This document shows, piece by piece, positions 6,192 to 53,659 of a DNA stretch of 64,000 nucleotides. The stretch covers positions 1 through 64,000 of the forward strand of contig JAIQFA010000017.1 of assembly GCA_020073525.1 (NCBI GenBank). Direction: 5' to 3'. The DNA comes from Terriglobia bacterium (lineage in GTDB: Bacteria; Acidobacteriota; Terriglobia; Terriglobales; Acidobacteriaceae). A model generated the notes under the pieces. It searched no databases and was not told the DNA's origin. It worked only from the letters and a program-made list of their open reading frames with translations. Numbering within the stretch: the stretch's first letter is position 1; the number at the start of each line of letters is the position of its first letter. The translations under genes and the position numbers were made by a program.

Positions 6192-6288
6192 CTGAACCGC
6201 GGAGATCGCAGAGTGCGCAGAGAAATCAGGCGAAAAGCCGGTTATCTTTTCCAAAATCTCTGCGCACTCTGCGATCTCTGCGGTTCAG
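6192..6288. repeat. Long inverted-repeat element, family F
   Basis: The arms run 6192-6224 and 6256-6288 (CTGAACCGCGGAGATCGCAG against CTGCGATCTCTGCGGTTCAG) with near-perfect pairing around a ~30-bp centre. It fills the gap between the metallo-hydrolase and ribF. It belongs to a set of intergenic palindromes with arms of the same style. Confidence 0.8.
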
Positions 6289-29046: not shown

Positions 29047-29062
29047 AGGAAAATGAGTGATT

Positions 29063-29174
29063 GGCAATTTGTAATTTGTAATCTGCAATTCTATGCTGGA
29101 ATGGCCCCAGGCGTCCGCTGGTTAATCAGGGATGCGGCTTGAATTACAAATCACCAATTGCAAATTACAAATTC
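29063..29174. repeat. AT-rich inverted repeat between mutS and galT
   Basis: GCAATTTGTAATTTGTAATC at the left faces GATTACAAATT-like units at the right (AATTGCAAATTACAAATTC). The centre of ~50 bp is GC-rich. The two promoters for the divergent mutS and galT must lie in or next to it. Confidence 0.65.
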
Positions 29175-46715: not shown

Positions 46716-48554
46716 CTAGACTTCCGCTAACTCTTCTTCCAGTAACTGCTTGTTATAAAGATCGGTGTAATAGCCGTTACAGGCGATGAGTTGGTCGTGG
46801 GTGCCGAGTTCTACGATGCGTCCCTGGTGCAGGACGGCGATGGCGTCCGCATTGCGGACGGTGGAGACGCGGTGGGAGATGAAGATGGTGGTGCGCCCTT
46901 GCATGATTTCTCGGAGATGGTTGAGGATCTTGTCCTCGGTCTGCGTGTCGACGCTGGAGAGGGCGTCGTCGAGGATCAGGATGCGCGGGCTGCGCAGCAG
47001 GGCGCGCGCGATGGCGGTGCGCTGCTTCTGGCCTCCGGAGAGCGTAATGCCGCGTTCGCCAACCGTCGTATTGTAGCCTTCGGGAAAACTCTCAATGTCG
47101 TACGCGATATTGGCGGCGGCAGCAGCGGCTTTGATCTCTTCGAGTGAAGCCTCGCCACCTTCCTGCGAGACGCCGTAAGCGATGTTTTCGCGAATCGTGT
47201 CGCTGAACAGGAATGTTTCCTGCGGAACGAACCCGATGTGCCGGCGCAGGGAGTCGAGAGGAAATTGGCGGATAGGGCGGCCGTCAATGAGGACCGCGCC
47301 GGGTTCGGCATCGTAGATGCGCGGGATCAGGTTGACGAGCGTCGTCTTGCCGGAGCCCGTCGGGCCGACGATGGCCAGGCTCGAGCCGGCAGGGATGCGC
47401 AGGTTAATGTCGTTGAGCACAGGCACGCCGTTATAGGCGAAGTTGAGATCGCGGAACTCGATCTCGCCAGAGAAATCGGGTGATCGGGTGATCGGGCCAT
47501 CGGGTGATTCAAAGGCAAAATTGCGTGTTGCTGGGGATTGATTTTCAGATGACCCGATGACCCGATCACCCGATGACCCGATTTCGTCGGCGATCTCGCG
47601 CTTCTGGGATAGAATCTCGTCAATCCGCGTCATGGACGCGGTTCCGCGTTGGAAGATGTTGATCACCCATCCGAGCGCGATCACCGGCCAGGTCAATTGC
47701 ACCATGTAGGTGTTGAACGCAACAAAGTCGCCGACGTTGATCTTCCCCATCAGCACCTGCCGTCCGCCGATCCAGAGCACGATGACGACGGCGGCGCCGA
47801 GCATGAGTTCCAGTGTCGGCCAGAGCATTCCCATCAGGCGGACCAGACCGAGGCTGCGGCGAATATATTCCTGGTTGGCGGTCTCGAAGGCGGCGATCTC
47901 GGCCTGTTCCTGCACATAGGCGCGAATGACGCGGGCCCCCGAGAAGTTTTCCTGCGCGCGCGCCGAGATATCGGAGAACATGGCCTGAATGCGTTCGAAG
48001 CGCTCGTGAATGCGGCGTCCGAAATACTGGATGACGATGCTGGCGATGGGCAGCGGTAGAAATGCGATGACTGTGAGTTTGGGGCTGATGGCGAGCATGA
48101 AGCCCAGCGCGCCCGCGGTGAATACGATGGTGTTGGCCGAGTACATGATGGCCGGGCCGAGCAGCATCCGGACCGCGTTCAGGTCGTTGGTGGCGCGCGC
48201 CATGATGTCGCCCGTGCGGTTGCGCTGGTAGTACGAGTAAGAAAGGCTCTCCAGGTGCTTGAACAGGTCGTTACGCAGGTCGAATTCGATGTCGCGCGAG
48301 ATGCCGATCACCACCCAGCGCGTCAGGAACTGGAAGATGCCCTTGATCAAAGCAATCGCGATCACGAGCAGCGAGTAAGTGAGAAGCTTCTGGCGGGTCA
48401 CGCCAGAGTGAAGATCGTTGATCGCCCGCCGGAGAACTTGCGGAAAAAGTATCCAGATTCCGTTATTGAATAGAACGCACAGTCCGCCCCAGACGAGACC
48501 GCTGCGGTAGCGCTTCAGATAGGGAACCAGCGGGCGTAGGTTCTTCGGCACCAT
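46716..48554 (-). CDS. ABC exporter, fused membrane and ATPase domains
   Basis: 612 residues. The N-terminal six-helix domain (exporter type I) contains the coupling-region pattern YYQRNRTGDIMARATNDLNA. The ATPase has Walker A GPTGSGKTT near residue 396, Q-loop FVPQETFLF, signature LSGGQKQRTAIARALL, Walker B ILILDDALSSVD and the switch His in FISHRVST. It resembles YheH/LmrA-type multidrug or lipid exporters. The linker between the domains (residues ~325-360, IGSSGDRVIGSS to ITRSPDF) is encoded by an inserted 108-bp palindromic element; the insertion is a multiple of three. Confidence 0.93.
   Translation of the reverse strand: MVPKNLRPLVPYLKRYRSGLVWGGLCVLFNNGIWILFPQVLRRAINDLHSGVTRQKLLTYSLLVIAIALIKGIFQFLTRWVVIGISRDIEFDLRNDLFKHLESLSYSYYQRNRTGDIMARATNDLNAVRMLLGPAIMYSANTIVFTAGALGFMLAISPKLTVIAFLPLPIASIVIQYFGRRIHERFERIQAMFSDISARAQENFSGARVIRAYVQEQAEIAAFETANQEYIRRSLGLVRLMGMLWPTLELMLGAAVVIVLWIGGRQVLMGKINVGDFVAFNTYMVQLTWPVIALGWVINIFQRGTASMTRIDEILSQKREIADEIGSSGDRVIGSSENQSPATRNFAFESPDGPITRSPDFSGEIEFRDLNFAYNGVPVLNDINLRIPAGSSLAIVGPTGSGKTTLVNLIPRIYDAEPGAVLIDGRPIRQFPLDSLRRHIGFVPQETFLFSDTIRENIAYGVSQEGGEASLEEIKAAAAAANIAYDIESFPEGYNTTVGERGITLSGGQKQRTAIARALLRSPRILILDDALSSVDTQTEDKILNHLREIMQGRTTIFISHRVSTVRNADAIAVLHQGRIVELGTHDQLIACNGYYTDLYNKQLLEEELAEV
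47475..47582. repeat. Palindromic element, family E, inside the ABC exporter gene
   Basis: Left arm 47475-47510 consists of repeated ATCGGGTGATCGGG units; right arm 47546-47582 of GATGACCCGATCACCCGATG units; the ~35-bp centre ends GGGGATTGATTTTCA. Arms and the GATTT(T)CAGATGACCC edge recur around the S23 gene at 49.5-49.95 kb and at 53591-53649. Confidence 0.85.
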
Positions 48555-49333: not shown

Positions 49334-49447
49334 TGGAACTCCTTATGACCTGCTTGATTCTCTAAGAGGTTCGGGAGGCAGCCCGAACATCCATGCAGAT
49401 AAGAACACTAATCTCAAAAATAAGAGGTAAAGAGTCGGTCAAGCGCG

Positions 49448-49462
49448 GTAAAGTTTTGTAAA
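49448..49462. promoter_or_regulatory. CpxR-type box, perfect consensus
   Basis: GTAAA-GTTTT-GTAAA exactly matches GTAAA-N5-GTAAA. It lies between the spy-like gene and the S23 insert, preceded by GCGCG. Confidence 0.65.
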
Positions 49463-49467
49463 GCAAT

Positions 49468-49500
49468 CCGGCCATCGGGCGATCGGGTCATCGGGCCATC
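49468..49500. repeat. Family E left arm beside the S23 gene
   Basis: CCGGCCATCGGGCGATCGGG then TCATCGGGCCATC. It pairs with the arm at 49911-49947, so the S23 gene is bracketed by inverted arms of the family found inside the ABC gene. Confidence 0.8.
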
Positions 49501-49545
49501 TTACGATCTATGATCGGTTGACTGCTGTCTCTGGGGATATTGCAT

Positions 49546-49917
49546 ATGGAACAAACTCTAAGTAAGCAGGAAGAGCTTCGGAATCGGACTAAGCGATTTT
49601 CGCTTCGGATCATTCATCTGTTCCAGCACTTGCCCCGGTCGACAGAAGCGCAGGTGCTGGGTAAGCAGTTGCTACGCTCTGGAACTTCGATCGGGGCCAA
49701 TTACCGGGCGGTCGGACGTGCGAGGTCGAAGGCGGAGTTTGTCTCGAAGATGGGCGTTGTCGCTGAGGAAGCCGACGAGGCCGTTTTCTGGATTGAGTGC
49801 CTGATCGAATCAGGAATTGTTAGCCGGATCTACTCGCTGATCTGCTCTCCGAGGCAAATGAGCTTATCGCAATCTTTGCGGCGTCCCAAAGGACCGCGCG
49901 GGGCTGATTTCAGATGA
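49546..49917 (+). CDS. Four-helix-bundle protein (S23/TIGR02436 family), C-terminus frameshifted
   Basis: 123 residues from ATG 49546 with GGGGAT ahead. Family features: RNRTKRFSLRIIHLFQHLPR, VLGKQLLRSGTSIGANYRAV, RARSKAEFVSKMGVVAEEAD and EAVFWIECLIESGIV. After RIYSL the frame becomes atypical. The expected ending ADLLSEANELIAIFAASQRT is present in another frame (to a TGA at 49905-49907), so one base seems lost near 49830. The family was first seen in 23S rRNA intervening sequences and is related in fold to Avd of diversity-generating retroelements; its role is not known. The gene is flanked by inverted family E arms and lies between two CpxR-type boxes. Confidence 0.75.
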   Translation: MEQTLSKQEELRNRTKRFSLRIIHLFQHLPRSTEAQVLGKQLLRSGTSIGANYRAVGRARSKAEFVSKMGVVAEEADEAVFWIECLIESGIVSRIYSLICSPRQMSLSQSLRRPKGPRGADFR

Positions 49918-49947
49918 CCCGATGGCCCGATCACCCGATGACCCGAT
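49911..49947. repeat. Family E right arm beside the S23 gene
   Basis: CAGATGACCCGATGGCCCGA then TCACCCGATGACCCGAT. The stop codon of the S23 frame lies in its first bases. Edge sequence GATTTCAGATGACCC matches the right edge of the copy in the ABC gene. Confidence 0.85.
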
Positions 49948-49952
49948 ATCTT

Positions 49953-49967
49953 TCTACAAATCTTTAC
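49953..49967. promoter_or_regulatory. Second CpxR-type box, near-consensus
   Basis: On the minus strand GTAAA-GATTT-GTAGA, one mismatch from GTAAA-N5-GTAAA and also preceded by GCGCG. It lies 27 bp before the response-regulator ATG. Its flanks resemble those of the box at 49448 in reverse. Confidence 0.5.
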
Positions 49968-49993
49968 CGCGCCCAGACAGCGGAAGGTGTTGA

Positions 49994-50710: not shown

Positions 50711-50741
50711 GCGTGGTGGCGTCAGTTTTAAGAAAGACATT

Positions 50742-50820
50742 AACCACTAAAGGGACGACAGTTCACGAGGGCTTTTCGCCTCAAGGGTTTCCTCCGTGGA
50801 CCTTCGTGCCCTTGGTGGTT
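50742..50820. repeat. Inverted-repeat element, family F, between regulator and kinase genes
   Basis: AACCACTAAAGGGACGACAG at the left and CCTTCGTGCCCTTGGTGGTT at the right. It splits an otherwise expected tight regulator-kinase operon by 150 bp. Confidence 0.75.
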
Positions 50821-50863
50821 AATGCTTTTGCCAGTGACTCACTGCTGAAATAAGACAACAACA

Positions 50864-53590: not shown

Positions 53591-53649
53591 CCATCGGGTG
53601 ATCGAAAAATCAATCCCGACAGGTTTTAGATGACCCGATCACCCGATGG
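53591..53649. repeat. Palindromic element, family E, short copy
   Basis: CCATCGGGTGATCG (53591-53604) pairs with the CGATCACCCGATGG end of the right arm (53628-53649). The right edge has GGTTTTAGATGACCC, similar to the other copies. It sits directly between the stop codons of two convergent genes. Confidence 0.8.
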
Positions 53650-53659
53650 CCAGATTTCA

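Follow-up and report, generated by a model that had tools for sequence, protein, structure and literature searches.

S23 (IVP) genes, which annotators name 'four helix bundle protein' or 'S23 ribosomal protein', appear to represent, within a class of mobile hairpin elements, those members that bear a gene; we give a probability of about 60% to this reading, in which the S23 protein would bind heptamer units and a host enzyme would also take part. Comparison of the sequences demonstrates that the arms that flank these genes and the repeat period of those arms are nearly constant, that there is one unit type for each S23 gene in a genome, and that the elements occur as insertion polymorphisms in which target DNA has been replaced.

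The window (the whole 64,000-nt stretch of Terriglobia DNA that was analysed) carries an S23 gene between two arms that belong to a period 8 family and are 85–89% complementary over 27-nt stretches (Table 1). PF05635 is the sole Pfam match of this gene, at 44.5 bits against a cut-off of 33.8. Its frame is that of the intact ortholog in a related genome (G011) only until about nt 49828 and is shifted thereafter; the predicted fourth (last) helix is thereby lost, so the window copy is probably non-functional. The G011 ortholog is predicted to form four helices (mean pLDDT 88), and the solved structures nearest to its model are the S23 proteins 2rld and 2gsc (chains A–E of each listed); Avd (4dwl) and ribonucleoprotein entries of diversity-generating retroelements (DGRs; 8ub7) rank lower, with weak E-values and high fold overlap. 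Outside the arms stand two GTAAA-type boxes which 17 of 18 genus orthologs fit, whether they have a hairpin or none, and which look alike by eye in the 18th (G002); the outer palindrome formed by these boxes is therefore host sequence. The locus lies outside a 23S rRNA gene, since its neighbours are protein genes and a search of the whole window with Rfam gave one tRNA and nothing else. An earlier note on this DNA had described the S23 gene between inverted arms and gene-less copies of the arms nearby, and both observations are confirmed.

Table 1. Coordinates in the window of the S23 locus, its host boxes and the gene-less hairpins
Feature	Position	Strand	Remarks
Gene-less heptamer hairpin, AATTTGT-type unit	29052..29173	.	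unit type as at S23 loci L086, L087, L391 and L393
ABC-transporter ORF	46716-48554	-	host of the gene-less hairpin at 47475-47582
Gene-less ATCGGG-unit hairpin, 108 nt	47475..47582	.	in frame within the ABC-transporter ORF
Host box left of element (GTAAA-type)	49443..49460	+	outside the element; present in genus orthologs with or without hairpin
Left arm	49466..49500	+	tandem 8-nt units ATCCGGCC ATCGGGCG ATCGGGTC ATCGGGCC ATC
S23 / 23S_rRNA_IVP (PF05635) gene, 125-aa ORF	49540..49917	+	Pfam match; comparison with intact G011 ortholog
Right arm	49913..49947	-	inverted units GATGACCCGATGGCCCGATCACCCGATGACCCGAT
Host box right of element (inverse GTAAA-type)	49955..49972	-	outside the element; genus ortholog comparison
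Gene-less ATCGGG-unit hairpin, 67 nt	53591..53657	.	directly 3' of the stop codon of a beta-propeller (Lactonase family) gene

The right inner edges of the three ATCGGG hairpins in the window read GATTTTCAGATGACCC, GATTTCAGATGACCC and GGTTTTAGATGACCC. The pattern ATCGGGYSATCGGG has 32 matches in the 6.0-Mb genome to which the window belongs and its reversed form has none, which excludes chance recurrence of the window arm. These matches make up 17 clusters, or 15 places when the S23 element and one other widely spaced pair of arms each count as a single place, and S23 is present at only one of the 15. Eleven further ATCGGG loci were read by eye, of which at least three (L011, L013 and L036) start immediately after a stop codon. 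Only the arms and a short inner edge are common to the 11, and the origin that the earlier note suggested for the short copies, by internal deletion from the unit that bears the gene, is thus not established. The unit of another S23 locus of this genome (L001), CAGGTSTCAGGTSTCAGG, gives 232 overlapping matches at up to two mismatches and none when reversed, and it is found at only that one of the genome's eight S23 loci. In 464 kb scanned, window included, there are 23 hairpins, 13 of them periodic, against 1 per 400 kb in base-shuffled sequence. Dispersed gene-less hairpins with gene-flanking sequence were seen for two units of this genome.

Two ATCGGG arms 774 nt apart (G000:C72:46074 and 46848; L016:1485-2350) bracket what by eye is a cytochrome-c-like ORF, and both share an odd ATCGGA second unit, as if the element took in a host gene. 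A long direct CAGGTCT array at G000:C151:39006-39107, with 13 overlapping matches and a slippage-like appearance, makes up one arm of a gene-less hairpin. Finally, at 1511-1861 and 1744-2063 of the window, a weak Y1_Tnp match (E 1.6e-9) overlaps an arm of a 36-nt inverted repeat that has a 248-nt loop.

Inverted arms flank all eight S23 genes of this genome, each with a different unit; the seven other than the window gene were judged by eye, and their 7- or 8-nt tandem units are AGGTCTC, CAGTTCT, CAGCTNT, GTCGCTA, AAGTCAG, AGGTTTCA and ATTGAATC. Each locus was given an arm score, the best local complementarity of its two 400-nt flanks, left against right (+1 for a match, -1 for a mismatch). 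This score is 19–42 at the eight loci, compared with a mean of 12 and a maximum of 22 for cross-pairs of the same flanks. A strict test combined a score of at least 16 with a best period, 7 or 8, that was the same for the two arms at a lag identity of 50% or higher. The thresholds were chosen after these first eight loci were known.

PF05635 is present in 33 of 41 related genomes, which gives 136 S23 loci after the merging of 9 pairs of adjacent matches. Four of these have flanks shorter than 100 nt on one side or the other; among the remaining 132 testable loci 120 score at least 16 (12 fall below), 109 score at least 18, and 99 pass the strict test (33 fail). The cross-phylum set consists of the best 80 of at least 585 confirmed matches, in named genomes, to one profile led by a Bacteroides S23 structure, and is for that reason weighted to Bacteroidota and Clostridia; titles among these best 80 include Bacteroidetes, Clostridia, Verrucomicrobia, Lentisphaeria, Fibrobacter, Richelia, Propionigenium, Sulfurovum, a gammaproteobacterium, Pyrinomonadaceae and others. 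One of the 80 contig loci was omitted for flanks under 100 nt. In the 79 testable loci from these best 80 of at least 585 matches, scores of at least 16 were found at 74 (with 5 below) and of at least 18 at 72, and 69 pass the strict test (10 fail), with a period of 7 in 68 and of 8 in one. S23 also occurs in 26 plasmid records and 2 phage records. Fourteen plasmid loci were read, mostly from cyanobacteria (Nostoc and others), with Treponema saccharophilum in addition; each of the 14 scores at least 16 and 13 are strict with period 7, three of the 14 being one insertion, and at one plasmid locus (L331) the inverted repeat is of a different kind.

Control genes and control flanks gave few such arms. 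None of 30 ParE toxin genes, a small family in the same genomes, scores 16 or more. Among 108 random ORFs of 80–250 codons in 400 kb, four score at least 16 and two at least 18, the latter being a nuoK-like ORF between two gene-less hairpins and a Y1_Tnp gene within a long inverted repeat. When the flanks are shifted 1000 nt outward, the strict test is passed by 0 of 64 (first 76 relatives loci) and 0 of 62 (79 cross-phylum loci), with a single score of at least 18 in each set; a shift of 600 nt gives 1 of 66 and 0 of 68, respectively. Flank pairs taken across loci were dropped as a null, as 5.8% and 22% of such pairs score at least 18; the loci share units, so these nulls are contaminated, and we therefore relied on the shifted flanks and ParE. 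For the relatives, the shifted-flank, polarity, unit-count, folding, correlation and same-genome tests were performed on the first 76 testable loci and not on the later 56.

ATCGGG arms are found at only 3 of the 136 S23 loci of the 41 genomes, all three at one orthologous site. ATCGGG arrays have matches in 16 of 24 genus genomes, and one genome with 74 overlapping matches (G003) has ATCGGG arms at none of its eight S23 loci. The ATCGGG arm is not characteristic of S23 as such; every S23 has its own unit. Either these hairpins outlast their S23, or the units on which S23 acts are not its own, or the agent is something other than S23. The earlier note had proposed that S23 and its arms constitute a mobile unit, and a discrete unit, dispersed gene-less relatives and empty sites do emerge from the present analysis; what speaks against its simple pairing of an autonomous element with MITEs is that so many genus genomes have ATCGGG arrays yet the ATCGGG-armed S23 loci are confined to one site.

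That site, here called cpx-like, is the gap between an LTXXQ gene and a response-regulator gene, with GTAAA-type boxes at both sides, in the genus of the window. At its 18 orthologous loci there are two ATCGGG hairpins with S23 (G000 and G011), one gene-less ATCGGG hairpin (G019), 10 gene-less hairpins of other heptamers, three near-empty gaps (17, 27 and 30 nt) and two with other sequence; G002 and the weaker hairpins (script score 9–14) were read by eye, and a paralog (L286 in G004) is left out of the count. A further genome outside the 18 (G006) likewise has S23 with ATCGGG arms at this site, and in G011 a second, gene-less ATCGGG hairpin lies immediately beside the S23-bearing one (L277). 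The in-frame spot within the ABC-transporter gene was compared by eye in 21 genomes, eight of which have ATCGGG hairpins (two composite or degenerate), two a hairpin of another heptamer, six REP-like repeats and five none of these; the five include G023, which has a short palindrome. Near-empty or hairpin-free states among relatives, for which the earlier note had advised a search, are thus found at both sites. By the terms of that note, abundant arms together with S23 genes that lack them, or the fixation of all three loci across relatives, would count against its proposal; arms are indeed abundant, S23 genes without any arms are rare, and neither of the two sites compared is fixed.

Filled and empty forms of S23 sites are found on cyanobacterial plasmids as well. 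On three Nostoc plasmids an S23 element lies within a DNA cytosine methyltransferase gene that is uninterrupted on Nostoc C052, C057 and UHCC 0302 plasmids; in N6 the 466-nt element replaces about 328 nt, and the flanks of N6 and C052 are 92% and 88% identical. Plasmid pC052_A of Nostoc C052 has an S23 element of about 430 nt in place of 197 nt found on a sibling plasmid of the same strain, with a right flank identical at 155 of 155 nt and a left flank 88% identical. In Anabaena cylindrica and Nostoc TCL26-01 an element stands between cas2 and cas1, with about 60 nt replaced (by eye), and cas2 adjoins cas1 in Nostoc UHCC 0870 and N. edaphicum. These three filled and empty sites lead us to conclude that S23 elements are mobile units. 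In Dolichospermum an S23 element occupies a gap with a helicase gene on one side and a methyltransferase gene on the other; in two relatives this gap has a different short sequence. Target DNA, about 60–330 nt at the three Nostoc/Anabaena plasmid sites, is replaced, and no target duplication was seen at the sites compared, at which the element ends can be placed only approximately. In four empty-site cases annotation gives S23 as the sole gene within the arms. Beside the left junction, the methyltransferase target has a single CAATTCG, which is also the unit of the element inserted there (L320, L321 and L323 compared with L315, L316 and L326); we rejected a target heptamer as a guide for insertion, as this match was noticed post hoc and the other sites, read by eye, have no such match.

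Unit number and polarity were analysed at loci with period 7 in both arms (52 in relatives, 68 cross-phylum). The units per arm, calculated as aligned length divided by 7, have a median of 5.07 in relatives and 5.0 in the cross-phylum set; the aligned length takes in some flank outside the repeats. In the direction of the gene, the cross-phylum arms are purine-rich at 62 of 68 loci and pyrimidine-rich at 6, and GC skew is positive at 59 and negative at 7; polarity is weaker in the relatives (30 of 52 purine-rich and 21 pyrimidine-rich, with a GC skew of 35 to 16). In that set the unit consensus is AG plus five more variable letters (G 85%, A 73%). In predicted RNA folds, 60% or more of the left arm pairs with the right arm at 57 of 63 and 57 of 72 loci folded. 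Similarity of arms tracks similarity of the S23 proteins, with Spearman coefficients of 0.43 (61 loci) and 0.22 (71 loci) after removal of same-site pairs, and these values were reached by none of 999 permutations; the loci retained exclude L006, which has no protein, arm scores below 18 or above 50, and other periods. Within a genome, similar arms are found in 1 of 91 S23 pairs, compared with 70 of 2255 pairs between genomes (69 of the first 76 loci, those with arm score 16–50 and period 7 or 8).

Among the 33 S23-bearing genomes RVT_1 was not found in 16, Y1_Tnp in 5 and PDDEXK_3 in 11, and all three were undetected in G025 (98% complete, 4 S23 matches) and G034 (82% complete, 1 match). Thus, so far as draft genomes show, no single one of these enzyme families is needed everywhere, and the idea that S23 must be partnered by a reverse transcriptase, a Y1 transposase or a GxxExxY nuclease is unsupported. 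The number of S23 genes correlates with the numbers of RVT_1, Y1_Tnp and PDDEXK_3 genes (rho 0.38, 0.52 and 0.65; 41 genomes). GxxExxY (PDDEXK_3, PF13366) genes of the relatives (L108–L137) also lie between inverted arms: 30 loci were fetched, 23 of 29 testable ones score at least 18 and 7 are strict, and flanks shifted by 1000 nt give 0 of 23. Their arms are a separate class, ACCACGGAGACACGGAG-like with a period of 8–10, and gene-less hairpins of this class are found in the window at 6192-6288 and 50733-50829.

In the Coxiella 23S rRNA intervening sequence (IVS) an S23 ORF lies in the loop of a 428-nt element with complementary borders and a 28-bp stem; the sections of PMC4990558 drawn on here term it a selfish genetic element and cite Ralph and McClelland 1993 for the proposal that mobility requires this ORF as a component. 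The S23 loci described above have the same plan, an S23 ORF in the loop of an element with complementary ends. An IVS is set in a helix of the 23S rRNA gene, unlike the window locus, and RNase III excises it from the RNA; for the S23 loci the corresponding stem is a predicted one. They differ in that, where neighbours are known, they lie between or inside protein genes, and also in their tandem-heptamer arms, which vary from gene to gene, and in their dispersed gene-less copies. Each RAYT (TnpA-REP) is a single copy beside its own REPIN class, according to the relevant sections of PMC3116915 and PMC2817692, and to that extent REP/REPIN–RAYT systems share with the S23 hairpins the dispersed gene-less hairpins and one gene per hairpin class. 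The S23 hairpins would work like a REPIN/RAYT pair but are not RAYT systems as these are defined, because their partner is a four-helix bundle and not a Y1 (HUH) transposase; moreover, the arms are tandem 7/8-mers rather than REPs. Unlike an IS element or MITE, the S23 elements have no transposase gene annotated between the arms in the four empty-site cases. Tandem heptanucleotide (STRR-type) repeats, mostly intergenic, are described for Xanthomonas (GGGAATC), Nostoc and Calothrix in part of PMC4692102, with 70 and 75 close convergent pairs in two Xanthomonas genomes, and for Beggiatoaceae (TAACTGA) in part of PMC4679880, where horizontal spread is suspected by a mechanism that was not evident; period 7 is likewise that of 68 of the 69 strict cross-phylum S23 loci here, although the window family has period 8. 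The term S23 is absent from both papers and no gene partner is proposed in those parts of them, and no report of a link between S23 and heptamer hairpins was found in the open-access literature (PMC), the scope searched. Avd is an accessory protein essential to DGR retrohoming, and PF05635 is said to resemble it, in the section of PMC10053308 concerned. S23 has the same fold as Avd; S23-bearing genomes differ from DGRs in that RVT_1 is undetected in nearly half of them (16 of 33).

S23 and Avd are pentamers. In the mechanism that we favor, the element would consist of two inverted arrays, with about five units of 7 nt (in some cases 8 nt) in each, and one S23 gene in the loop between them. The pentamer, with its Avd fold, would bind the heptamer array, one unit per subunit, either on a folded transcript or on single-stranded DNA, and the resulting nucleoprotein would be brought to a host enzyme that copies or patches the element into gaps or breaks. 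It is from the arms, the correlation between unit and protein and the Avd fold that we infer both the binding and the completion by a host enzyme; the agreement of five units with five subunits is a coincidence between medians. The intervening sequences of 23S rRNA, whose inverted repeat likewise has S23 in its loop, would be the most familiar special case of such an element.

S23 might instead be a passenger that survives best in the loops of hairpins spread by another enzyme (Y1/RAYT, GxxExxY nuclease or reverse transcriptase) or by recombination. This would account for gene-less hairpins that far outnumber those with S23, as with the 232 matches to CAGGTSTCAGGTSTCAGG, for genomes rich in ATCGGG hairpins that have no ATCGGG-armed S23, and for the correlation of S23 number with that of the three enzyme families. 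We nevertheless consider it unlikely, as G025 and G034 have no match to any of the three families and many other S23-bearing genomes lack one or another, arms follow the identity of the S23 protein, and S23 is the only gene annotated between the arms in the four empty-site cases.

That the hairpins are immobile, with arms that develop in situ through slippage and templated inverted duplication and are perhaps selected as terminators or for control of the S23 message, seems to us quite improbable. The long direct CAGGTCT array, the units that differ between species at one site, and the ATCGGG loci that begin right after a stop codon (as does the window hairpin at 53591) would fit such growth; the recurrence of one unit at many places within a genome would not, nor would the whole S23 elements that lie inside the methyltransferase gene and between cas2 and cas1, at places where both the arms and the S23 gene are absent from relatives, and a terminator role leaves unexplained the in-frame copy inside the ABC transporter. 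Least probable in our judgment is that host repair captures whatever stable hairpin fragment is present at a break, and that S23 has no part in the choice but protects the fragment or folds it. Here the loss of target and the lack of visible target duplication at the three Nostoc/Anabaena plasmid sites are as expected, and so are the REP-like repeats at the ABC-transporter site in six of 21 genomes, which mean that one site can take unrelated hairpins; however, capture without choice fails to predict either the near-constant 7/8-nt period or the co-variation of unit and protein.

Taken to its full extent, the idea of S23 genes as gene-bearing members of a mobile hairpin class would make S23/IVP proteins pentamers that read heptamer arrays and act as partners to a bacteria-wide class of mobile hairpins, which move without a transposase and replace stretches of their target; the over-abundant heptamer repeats in bacterial genomes would then be largely the debris of these hairpins, and the 23S rRNA IVS one landing place of many. 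We put forward this wider proposal tentatively, at somewhat less than even odds. If true, it would give a common frame for S23/IVP function, for the commonness of heptamers among mid-length bacterial tandem repeats and for the origin of rRNA intervening sequences, and it would describe a mobile element whose only gene encodes a four-helix bundle in which no catalytic domain is recognised. By their arms, S23 genes can be recognised in a simple way as mobile DNA.
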